Source: Hymenobacter psychrotolerans DSM 18569
GTDB taxonomy: Bacteria; Bacteroidota; Bacteroidia; Cytophagales; Hymenobacteraceae
Assembly (NCBI RefSeq): GCF_900142395.1
Contig: NZ_FRAS01000001.1
Coordinates: 1 to 64,000, forward strand
Reading direction: 5' to 3'
Length of the DNA: 64,000 bases
The position numbers and the translations under genes were made by a program. This document shows positions 6,512 through 9,738 of this stretch, in pieces. Each line of letters starts with the position of its first letter. Position 1 is the first letter of the stretch. Below the pieces are notes generated by a model. It was given only the letters and a program-made list of their open reading frames with translations. It was not told the DNA's origin and ran no database searches.

Positions 6512-6543
6512 TTGTGAATATGGAAACTGCGCTTATACCTTTG
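6512..6543 (+). promoter_or_regulatory. metY promoter
   Basis: TTG (6512-6514), a 21-base spacer and TACCTTTG (6536-6543) match the Bacteroidota -33/-7 promoter well. Transcription should begin near 6550, giving a leader of more than 500 bases before metY. Confidence 0.7.
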
Positions 6544-6558
6544 TATCACCAACACGGT

Positions 6559-6586
6559 ACTCCCCCGCTCGCGGCGGGGTAGTTTT
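6559..6586 (+). other. 5'-leader hairpin with T-run
   Basis: A stem of nine pairs out of ten, ACTCCCCCGC (6559-6568) with GCGGGGTAGT (6574-6583), is followed by T4. It begins about 10 bases after the predicted transcription start and just before the SAM riboswitch. It could be a weak terminator, a pause site or a 5'-end stabiliser. Confidence 0.5.
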
Positions 6587-6592
6587 CATAGG

Positions 6593-6702
6593 ATTTATAC
6601 AGAAGCGGCGAGAGAACAGGCTCCCTGACCCGCTGGCAACCTTCGACCGCGCGAAAGGTGCCAATTCCTGCCCGACCGGCTTTTGCCGACGGGGCATATA
6701 AC
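6593..6702 (+). ncRNA. SAM (S-box) riboswitch upstream of metY
   Basis: The SAM-I aptamer core is readable. P1 pairs TTATA (6595-6599) with TATAA (6697-6701). P2 pairs AGCGG with CCGCT around a GAGAGAAC kink-turn side and AGGCTCCCTGA. The invariant GGCAACC follows, then a P3 stem CCTTCG/CGAAAGG, then GGTGCCAATTCCTGCCC and a P4 hairpin with a TTTT loop. SAM-I riboswitches repress methionine genes when S-adenosylmethionine is abundant, which fits the downstream metY-metX genes. The expression platform is unclear: metY begins 370 bases further on, and the first start codon after the aptamer is that of the short frame at 6712. The aptamer call is firm; boundaries are within a few bases. Confidence 0.87.
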
Positions 6703-6711
6703 CCGAGTGCC

Positions 6712-6870
6712 ATGGAAAACACCCTCGCTTTCGTTCTGCCGTTTCCTGCCGCCCCGGTTGCTTTGCTGCACACCGCGCGGCCGCAGGTTTTTCGCGTTTC
6801 CGAAGTTGCTGCAGCCCATAGCCCTGCGCGGCGAATGCGCTGTTGGGACACGTGTTGTTGCTGTTGCTAA
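6712..6870 (+). CDS. Putative poly-cysteine leader peptide upstream of metY
   Basis: An ATG ten bases after the riboswitch opens a 52-codon frame whose product ends MRCWDTCCCCC before TAA (codons TGT TGT TGC TGT TGC at 6853-6867, stop 6868-6870). An internal ATG at 6835 could alternatively start an 11-residue peptide with the same end. Runs of cysteine codons upstream of sulfur genes are known from actinobacterial cysteine-responsive attenuators; here the link with cysteine is inferred. The frame lies inside the metY leader after a SAM riboswitch, so both signals may act on one transcript. A small hairpin begins at the last Cys codon and stop. I do not recognise the peptide from any named family. 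Confidence 0.55.
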   Translation: MENTLAFVLPFPAAPVALLHTARPQVFRVSEVAAAHSPARRMRCWDTCCCCC

Positions 6871-8463
<1,593 letters not shown>

Positions 8464-8476
8464 TGAGAGGGTTGGG

Positions 8477-8693
8477 AACCGGCCGTTTTGAGAGGGCGGC
8501 CGGCTTCACCTTCAGCCTGGCGGTATGCGGGCAGGGCGCTCCTTTTTTTGTGAGAGAGGGAAGTAGCGCTACCTGCCCGCCCATAGCCGGGGCTGAGTTG
8601 GCCAAGGCCGGCTCAGCCTGCGGGCTATGTTAGCAACAACGTGGCCCGGAGCAGTGCTCCGGCCGCATTCCGGGGTAGATACTGCCCCTTTTT
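8477..8693 (+). other. Hairpin-rich metY-metX spacer with terminator-like element
   Basis: The 243-base spacer holds no promoter match but many inverted repeats: CCGGCCG/CGGCCGG (8479-8503), GCGGGCAGG/CCTGCCCGC (8527-8535, 8572-8580), the palindrome GTAGCGCTAC (8563-8572), a nested stem CATAGCC...GGCTGAG / CTCAGCC...GGCTATG (8582-8629), CCGGAGC/GCTCCGG (8646-8662), and GGGGTA/TGCCCC followed by T5 (8672-8693). The last is shaped like an intrinsic terminator and ends 13 bases before the metX ATG, so metX expression may be attenuated or the RNA stabilised. Confidence 0.5.
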
Positions 8694-8706
8694 CATTCGA
8701 CAAGCT

Positions 8707-9738
8707 ATGAGCGACGAACCGCACATCTTTCGGCTACCGTGCGCTTTGCGGCTGGAAAGTGGCGCCGTGCTGCCACAAGTAGATATTGCCTACCAGACCT
8801 ACGGCCACCTCGCCCCCACCCGCAACAACGTGGTGTGGGTCTGCCACGCCCTTACTGCCAATGCCAACGTGCTGGACTGGTGGGCAGGCTTGTTTGGCAC
8901 CGGCTGCTATTTCGACCCGGCCGACTGGTTTATTGTCTGCGCCAACGTGGTAGGCTCCTGCTACGGCAGCACCGGCCCGCTTTCTGTGGACGAAACAACG
9001 GGCCTGGCTGCCTATCAGGAGTTTCCGCTCCTGACCGTCCGCGACTTGGTAGCGGTGCACGAGGCCCTGCGGGAGCATCTGGCGCTGCCCCGGATTCATA
9101 CCGTAATCGGGGGCTCGTTGGGTGGGCAGCAGGCCGTGGAGTGGGCTGTGCAGCGGCCGGCTCTGTTCGAAAACTTAGTGCTGCTGGCGACAAACGCGCG
9201 GCATTCGGCCTGGGGCATTGCGTTCAATGAGGCGCAGCGCCTGGCTATTCTGGCCGACCCTACCTATGCGGCGGCCGCGCCCGACGGTGGTGCAGCCGGC
9301 CTGCAGGCCGCCCGGGCCGTGGCGCTGCTCAGCTACCGCAGCTACGACGCGTACCAGCGCACGCAAACAGAGCCCGACGAAGAAGCGCTGCACGACTACC
9401 GCGCCAGTTCCTACCAACGCTACCAGGGCAGCAAGCTGGTAGCGCGCTTCAATGCCTACTCCTACGTGGCGCTTTCCCGGACCATGGACACGCACCATGT
9501 GGGGCGCGGCCGCAACGGTATTCGGGCGGCCCTGGCGCGGATACGGGCCCGCACGCTGGTGATTGGCATTACCTCCGATGTGCTGTTTCCGCCGGCGGAG
9601 CAGCAGCTGCTGGCGCGCTACATCCCCGGGGCGGTGTATGCCGAAATGGATTCCCAATTCGGTCACGACGGTTTCCTGATTGAAACCGCGCAAATCTCCC
9701 ATACCCTCGAACGATTTTACGTCCAGACGTATGCATAG
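8707..9738 (+). CDS. metX: Homoserine O-acetyltransferase
   Basis: MetX is an alpha/beta hydrolase-fold enzyme that acetylates homoserine with acetyl-CoA, giving the substrate of MetY. The 343-residue product has VCHALTANANVLDWWAGLFG, the nucleophile elbow GGSLGGQQAVEW (Ser137), and the late acid and base in ITSDVLFPPAEQ and FGHDGFLIE. The ATG at 8707 (MSDEPHIFRLP) is preferred to an upstream extension because the latter runs into a terminator-like hairpin. No promoter was found in the spacer, so it is probably read through from metY. Its stop overlaps the start of the next gene by 8 bases. Confidence 0.94.
   Translation: MSDEPHIFRLPCALRLESGAVLPQVDIAYQTYGHLAPTRNNVVWVCHALTANANVLDWWAGLFGTGCYFDPADWFIVCANVVGSCYGSTGPLSVDETTGLAAYQEFPLLTVRDLVAVHEALREHLALPRIHTVIGGSLGGQQAVEWAVQRPALFENLVLLATNARHSAWGIAFNEAQRLAILADPTYAAAAPDGGAAGLQAARAVALLSYRSYDAYQRTQTEPDEEALHDYRASSYQRYQGSKLVARFNAYSYVALSRTMDTHHVGRGRNGIRAALARIRARTLVIGITSDVLFPPAEQQLLARYIPGAVYAEMDSQFGHDGFLIETAQISHTLERFYVQTYA

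Follow-up and report, generated by a model that had tools for sequence, protein, structure and literature searches.

A candidate two-signal leader, pairing a SAM-I aptamer with a cysteine codon run, before sulfur-assimilation operons of Bacteroidota

A run of cysteine codons just ahead of a stop codon is a classic sign of a codon-based sensor. In mycobacteria, the Cys-run region of such leaders pairs with the downstream ribosome-binding region, and in Salmonella the mgtA leader joins a Mg2+ switch to the proline codons of mgtL. The mycobacterial polycysteine ORFs are reportedly cysteine-responsive, to judge by the title of work by Canestrari et al. from 2020. As represented in the accessible parts of the sources, several neighboring systems have been described. 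Polycysteine leader ORFs of mycobacteria were proposed to be cysteine-responsive (Shell et al., 2015; PMC4633059), and a 2026 paper terms their mechanism translation attenuation. In Mycobacterium tuberculosis, the Mbox controls an upstream ORF (uORF) with Rho termination (D'Halluin et al., 2026; PMC12810186), and B12 riboswitches occur with uORFs (Kipkorir et al., 2024; PMC11260477). In some SAM-I switches, the 3' side of P1 contains the ribosome-binding site (Barrick and Breaker, 2007; PMC2258182), and a tandem SAM-I plus AdoCbl riboswitch acts as a NOR gate (review PMC9481103). Within the Bacteroidota, a flavobacterial transcriptome gave clues for leader-peptide attenuation before amino-acid operons generally (PMC9723704), and small ORFs lie in long 5' UTRs of Bacteroides thetaiotaomicron (PMC7366714). 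Among the matches listed in the open-access literature, we found no description of a SAM riboswitch with a Cys-run ORF, nor of Cys attenuation in Bacteroidota, in agreement with a preliminary description of the present DNA that knew of no such case in this phylum.

The window analyzed here is a stretch of 64,000 nucleotides from Hymenobacter psychrotolerans DSM 18569, and all features described in it lie on the + strand. It contains metY, encoding O-acetylhomoserine (OAH) sulfhydrylase (7075..8463; TIGR01326, 676 bits), followed by ORF 8641-9738, which we take to be metX, homoserine O-acetyltransferase, in its ATG-started form at 8707..9738. Upstream of the leader lies TACCTTTG (6536..6543), which fits the Bacteroidota sigma-A -7 box consensus TAnnTTTG (PMC9723704), and transcription probably starts a few bases 3' of it. 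Since TAnnTTTG was present no more than 75 nt upstream of P1 in 92/92 genus leaders with a located P1 5' strand (of 94), the aptamer and the leader ORF very probably lie on the metY transcript. Between the box and the aptamer is a 5' hairpin (CCCCGC/GCGGGG, then TAGTTTT; 6562..6586) whose arms co-vary across 12 example genus leaders; this hairpin may stabilize the 5' end or serve as an early terminator. In 92/92 genus leaders, the fold of the 45 nt ahead of P1 was below −6 kcal/mol, a count taken with no shuffle control.

The SAM-I riboswitch aptamer, with an AU-rich P1, spans 6592..6704 (113 nt) and scored 65.8 bits against RF00162 (cut-off 44.4), covering positions 1-108 of the 108 in the model; besides RF00162, no family reached its own cut-off in an Rfam search of the whole window. 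Behind it lies the leader ORF MENTLAFVLPFPAAPVALLHTARPQVFRVSEVAAAHSPARRMRCWDTCCCCC (6712..6870), with 52 codons, an ATG at 6712 and a TAA stop at 6868-6870. Its terminal MRCWDTCCCCC segment (6835..6867) holds six Cys codons and is the proposed pause site, and the last five sense codons read TGT TGT TGC TGT TGC (6853-6867). ORF reading and the RF00162 match together confirmed the 52-codon frame with five terminal Cys that the preliminary description had placed behind a SAM aptamer; the ATG is indeed close to the aptamer end, at a spacing of 7 bases and not the ten first given. A short stem-loop, GCTAACCTG / CAGGTAGC with one bulge (6866..6887), to which the genus lends weak support, extends its 5' arm over the final Cys codon and the stop, and is followed by a pyrimidine-rich stretch 20 to 40 nt past the stop (6890..6910), a candidate Rho-loading region.

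Like the mgtA leader, this arrangement brings together a signal read by RNA folding and codons for a single amino acid, although RNA, codons, genes and phylum are all unrelated. With the mycobacterial polycysteine ORFs it shares a short ORF, end-clustered Cys codons, a place before sulfur or cysteine genes and a conserved position. The mycobacterial ORF is leaderless, with no riboswitch mentioned in the accessible text (PMC4633059), whereas the Bacteroidota ORF stands behind a SAM-I aptamer and, given the start site placed above, is not leaderless, being preceded by a conserved promoter box and the 113-nt aptamer. As with the Mbox, the aptamer lies directly at a conserved small ORF; the Mbox, which works by translational control and Rho-dependent termination, answers to one signal (Mg2+), has no amino-acid-sensing codon run mentioned in the available part of its description, and belongs to another aptamer class and phylum (PMC12810186). 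In the B12 case, too, a riboswitch and a translated uORF serve the same operon, but the accessible account has those uORFs acting by suppression or termination-reinitiation and not as amino-acid sensors (PMC11260477). The NOR gate resembles the logic proposed below in that either of two metabolic signals shuts the operon and the SAM-I aptamer comes first, but both of its sensors are aptamers, and the terms uORF, leader peptide and attenuation are absent from the accessible text of the review (PMC9481103). Finally, closure of P1 would hide a start region, as in the SAM-I switches described by Barrick and Breaker (PMC2258182), but the start hidden here would be that of the small sensor ORF and not that of the enzyme.

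Within the genus, metY was found in 113/120 genomes, and 110 leaders were examined after omission of one partial match and two low-completeness genomes. An automatic count gave an aptamer-core match in 95 of the 110, and 94 of these 95 had an ATG frame of 40-63 codons, 53-68 bases past the core start and directly before metY; at least four of the last 12 codons were Cys in 89 of the 94 frames. In the other 16 leaders (15 without a core match, plus G053, whose match lies inside a gene), metY is preceded by another gene, presumably peroxiredoxin-like. Core and frame were located 1.1-1.2 kb upstream of metY, ahead of this gene, in 15 of the 16, with at least four Cys in 14 of those 15 frames; for the remaining genome (G165) no aptamer core was found in extended upstream sequence. 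The module thus keeps to the front of the operon in 109/110 cases, and at least four terminal Cys codons are present in 103/109 genus frames. Many runs are interrupted by one to a few residues (e.g., CCCSACCCCC), and six of the 109 are down to 2-3 Cys: three species have only the 2 Cys of a terminal CWGC(R/W)M, two species have 3 Cys, and one frame ends in DCCRRR (2 Cys). The preliminary description had proposed aligning the leaders of relatives and would have given up its claim had the run been absent, interrupted or out of frame in them; the Cys run, the aptamer distance and the frame are conserved among the 110 leaders, the run being mostly present despite its interruptions, and the claim stands.

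Other SAM leaders of the genus bear related frames. The H. psychrotolerans genome has a second one before an amino-acid permease gene (L002; C43:13741-13834, minus strand), in which the frame starts with GTG and ends CSCCSTGCCCC, and frames resembling it precede permease genes in G016 and G011 (L148 and L150). Three genus leaders located before a TonB receptor gene or cysH (L247, L249, L252) all contain GCTGTACAGCATGGGTGTTG and mix Cys and Met codons, e.g., HGCCCMARPATCMAAASMGC.

Sequence divergence among 44 non-overlapping genus pairs indicates that the leader frame is under purifying selection. The whole frame had a pN/pS ratio of 0.56; upstream of the RMRM segment the ratio was 0.62, and within the Cys block it fell to 0.38, whereas reading one and two bases out of frame gave 0.94 and 0.98 for the body and 0.79 and 0.75 for the Cys block; from the 0.56 against 0.94 and 0.98 we conclude that the frame behaves as translated. 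Among Cys-block position pairs with Cys on either side, 232 were identical, 18 synonymous and 33 changed. Codon choice was also distinctive, with TGT outnumbering TGC (323 to 248) in the last 12 codons of 94 genus frames, as compared with 26 TGT and 122 TGC in metY plus the next long frame at 30 loci. At the 79 loci of the wide scan described below, TGT:TGC was 254 to 157 in the runs vs. 174 to 263 in downstream frames of more than 150 residues.

The RMRM segment (6829-6840 and its equivalents in genus leaders) had a pS of 0.066 vs. 0.26 upstream, a low value that could reflect an RNA element or an internal start. We considered the internal ATG at 6835 (MRCWDTCCCCC) as the sole true ORF and set this reading aside, because both the position and the reading frame of the ORF that opens at 6712 are conserved, and selection acts on it upstream of 6835; internal starts within the leader ORF may exist all the same.

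How specific such a run is was judged from pattern counts. The pattern (TGY)5TAR has one match in the 4.76-Mb assembly, at the metY leader, and its backward-read control also has one. Among dinucleotide-shuffled leaders, 0.05% had at least four Cys within the last 12 codons, compared with 89/95 real leaders with an aptamer-core match, which share ancestry and so are not independent. Across 59 genomes of the order, (TGY)5TAR matched 32 times, comprising 13 SAM leaders (the same ones found by RF00162), seven copies in one tandem repeat and 12 places elsewhere; the backward control matched four times in these genomes. Ten of the 12 lack an in-frame ATG, and the other two are frames of 8 (L364) and 33 residues (L358). 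Given that only 2/12 non-SAM, non-repeat matches have an in-frame ATG, SAM leaders are almost the only places in the 59 genomes where a frame ends in five Cys. The L358 frame (G207:C1:544308) ends in six Cys before a TonB receptor gene, with no recognizable SAM core in the 160 nt upstream, and is possibly a stand-alone cysteine leader. The tandem array (G217:C5:11211-14270; spacing 234 bases or multiples), with its seven copies of the pattern, is unrelated to SAM leaders. A direct DNA pattern for CWD.CC, run on 150 family genomes, hit the metY leader and nine apparently unrelated places and was dropped, being too narrow because the middle residues vary.

To compare aptamers outside the genus, RF00162 was searched in 59 order genomes (46 with a match) and 90 class genomes (66 with a match). 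The resulting comparison set of 142 oriented aptamers from 78 genomes is a selection and not every match: it includes four from the H. psychrotolerans genome, the best-scoring new loci of the order (29) and class (29) searches, 60/64 further order places outside the genus (four near repeats of one genus were omitted), 10 non-metY genus places, and 10 of ∼50 further class places hand-picked mostly from genomes with several aptamers. A Cys frame was counted when ATG, GTG or TTG lay within 20 nt of the aptamer end and opened a frame of 12 or more residues, of which the last 12 included 3 or more Cys. P1 classes were set by a text rule (P1 begins TTTATA, or other), and the comparative tests treat loci as independent, ignoring kinship.

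By these rules, a Cys frame follows 40 of the 142 aptamers, in 28 genomes, with ten families represented in the order and three at class level. It is found at 35/61 aptamers with a TTTATA-type P1 vs. 5/81 with another P1, and four of the latter five have ATAAA on the 3' side. By downstream gene, the split is 0/53 metH leaders vs. 40/89 other loci; one metH candidate (L232), a 17-residue GTG frame overlapping P1 with scattered Cys, was dropped as spurious, and its inclusion would bring metH to 1/53. An ATG lies 6-14 nt past the aptamer at 44/61 TTTATA-type loci vs. 12/81 of the other type, while six control positions gave counts of 1-13 and 10-19, respectively. The AU-rich P1 ends 7-14 bases before the start codon at 38/40 loci, a spacing that fits the earlier suggestion that the aptamer may act on initiation of the small frame.

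The Cys bias is concentrated at the frame ends. Outside the genus, TTTATA-type aptamers are followed by 39 short ATG frames, counted whether or not they contain Cys; in these, Cys accounts for 43.6% of the final 8 residues vs. 1.9% of the body, followed by Met at 0.064 vs. 0.017, and Cys is the only residue to reach 4 of the last 10, which it does in 20/39 frames. Compared by eye, peptide bodies show no evident relation, either from genus to genus or among the leaders of a single genome. Eleven of the 30 TTTATA-type metY loci lack a Cys frame by the rules above, some of them having a short ATG frame without a Cys run; two desulfurase loci (L211 and L221) are weak members with 16 residues and 3 Cys near the end, and none of nine cystathionine-synthase-type loci has such a frame. 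At three loci with a canonical GATAAG P1 (L136, L188, L128), a hairpin and T tract (GCTCTTC..GAAGAGC-TTTTT) were seen by eye soon past the aptamer, with no leader ORF.

A wider scan covered 84,980 species with a pattern of SAM core, TATAA and (TGY)4TAR at fixed gap ranges. Because the pattern requires the Cys run, only the ATG, spacing, genes and lineages count as evidence, and because it requires TATAA, leaders with other P1 helices would be missed. It returned 79 matching stretches, 77 of them from Bacteroidota by record titles (only Agaribacillus was looked up) and two from one bin titled "bacterium." An in-frame ATG is present in 79/79, lying 8-16 bases past TATAA in 63 and 2-5 or 18-20 bases past it in eight, with the outermost ATG before TATAA in the remaining eight. 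A gene is in reach at 74 loci and absent from the stretch at five. The first downstream gene is metY-like at 37 loci, an ATP-grasp (RimK-like) gene at eight, cysH, sulfite reductase, metX and a TonB receptor gene at three each, and NhaC-like at one; metH is first at 0/74, and 16 are unlabeled, among which five ferredoxins (one checked = Fer4) and four OsmC-like genes (one checked, below the family cut-off) were recognized by eye. Most labeled downstream genes make or use reduced sulfur. Outside the genus the peptide bodies look unrelated, and what recurs is position and a terminal run of 4-8 Cys. Cys and Met alternate in nine leader tails from Mucilaginibacter and from two loci with no title beyond Bacteroidetes (e.g., CICMCCCCC, CMCMCCCCC), and such tails may read methionine too in some lineages, for instance Mucilaginibacter.

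Given that aptamer and Cys-run frame recur as a pair before sulfur genes in many Bacteroidota, we regard the metY leader as probably a two-signal leader of a sulfur-assimilation operon, reading SAM and cysteine; the preliminary description had put forward the same pairing, and sequence comparison speaks for it. With SAM plentiful, the aptamer would close its AU-rich P1, the 3' strand of which lies in the ORF start region, inside the stretch held by a starting ribosome, and the ORF would go untranslated; SAM would in this way shut the leader ORF. With SAM low, the ORF would be translated and the Cys run before its stop would gauge charged Cys-tRNA: ribosomes would pass and leave when cysteine is sufficient and pause at the Cys codons when it is scarce. 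An untranslated leader and a passed leader would both mean off, only a ribosome held at the run would turn the operon on, and full metY-metX expression would require that both SAM and cysteine be low. We infer SAM binding, start occlusion, ribosome pausing under cysteine shortage and the effect on metY expression from sequence features. On a broader scale, we lean, with somewhat less assurance, toward a sulfur-regulon leader of the Bacteroidota in which a SAM-I aptamer gates translation of a cysteine codon-run sensor and so places SAM-and-cysteine logic on one RNA. The proposed regulon would include metY, APS/PAPS reductase, sulfite reductase, ferredoxin, amino-acid permease, ATP-grasp ligase and TonB receptors.

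Several routes from a held ribosome to the operon were compared. Measured against leader shuffles, base pairing between the Cys run and the leader downstream of it had a mean z of −0.31 (n = 38; four loci below −2) and, in the genus, −0.69 (n = 94). Such pairing is thus not general, with a weak signal in places, and lends no support to the mycobacterial route. Considering also their different peptide bodies and the aptamer next to them, the Bacteroidota cases, which belong to another phylum, may have a separate origin. The aptamer and start region folded without ligand gave a z of −1.23, an uninformative value, and no consistent start-site pairing was found in the leaders compared. The stem overlapping the stop codon had a mean score of 14.4 in the genus vs. 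11.1 in shuffles, with 22% of leaders above the shuffle 95th percentile, and was not general among leaders outside the genus; C-rich RNA follows it, with no U tract. Terminator-like sites were detected in 12/94 frame-bearing genus leaders (shuffles 3.1%) and 3/31 elsewhere (shuffles 2.1%), compared with 29/75 other-P1 leaders without a frame (shuffles 1.9%). In the 94 genus and 31 other leaders, an intrinsic terminator with U tract had no consistent place after the leader ORF, the sites being scattered from +10 to +170.

A remaining candidate is Rho. A vacated or untranslated leader, C-rich and G-poor past the stop, would offer a Rho termination site that a paused ribosome would shield, and such a site placed past the stop could account for repression by SAM and by cysteine alike. 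Composition 20 to 40 nt after the stop was C 0.49 and G 0.11 in the genus; in other genera C over G was 1.4 to 2.8, but 0.96 at +40 to +60, and in the other leader class it was 0.8 to 1.7. We take this ratio as suggestive, and no more, of a Rho site. Rho as the last step is the weakest part of the explanation, a tentative choice to which we would assign the smaller share of the weight.

Other explanations can be built on the same features. The riboswitch alone might regulate, with the small frame serving as its translational expression platform, by shielding the leader or bringing ribosomes to metY, and with a Cys run that is no gauge of cysteine at all. Riboswitch-controlled uORFs are reported in M. 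tuberculosis, in the accessible parts of the two descriptions (PMC12810186, PMC11260477), and here P1 adjoins the start codon, as this account would have it. It does not, however, anticipate the enrichment of Cys at the frame ends, with Met next, nor a run that is kept when the rest of the peptide is not, nor a pN/pS lower in the Cys block than in the body, and we consider it unlikely. The latter value, 0.62 before the RMRM segment, shows purifying selection in the genus beyond the tail, as expected if the frame encoded a functional Cys-rich small protein (binding thiols, metals or persulfides) co-expressed with the sulfur genes. Against such a protein stand bodies that look unrelated to the eye even within one genome, a run that abuts or nearly abuts the stop, and a Pfam match for 0/3 peptides tested, and we judge it very improbable.

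Terminal runs of 4-8 Cys would equally suit an arrest peptide or redox sensor, in which the nascent chain is read rather than the charging of Cys-tRNA. However, the bodies, which would occupy the exit tunnel, show no apparent conservation from one genus to another, and the enrichment of TGT over genes of the same loci suggests that decoding matters, which makes this the least probable of the explanations weighed here. A classical attenuator, in which ribosome position selects a terminator or antiterminator through the stop-codon stem, could draw on the presence of that stem in many genus leaders and on terminator-like sites in the genus at a rate above shuffles. Such sites are, however, scattered and are absent in 82/94 and 28/31 leaders, and the stem leads into C-rich RNA instead of a U tract, so that we hold a classical attenuator to be very doubtful.

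By sequence comparison, then, the leader joins two known devices in a new way, and it is widespread within a single phylum. Riboswitches and leader-peptide attenuators have usually been seen as alternatives to each other; in this case the one appears to gate access to the other, and the cell would consult SAM, the end product, before cysteine, the sulfur donor. A natural control exists within one riboswitch family, with metH leaders lacking the frame and sulfur-assimilation leaders often carrying it, and TTTATA-type SAM-I switches are best studied together with their leader ORF. Many Bacteroidota sulfur operons may carry small ORFs of this kind that gene finders miss.
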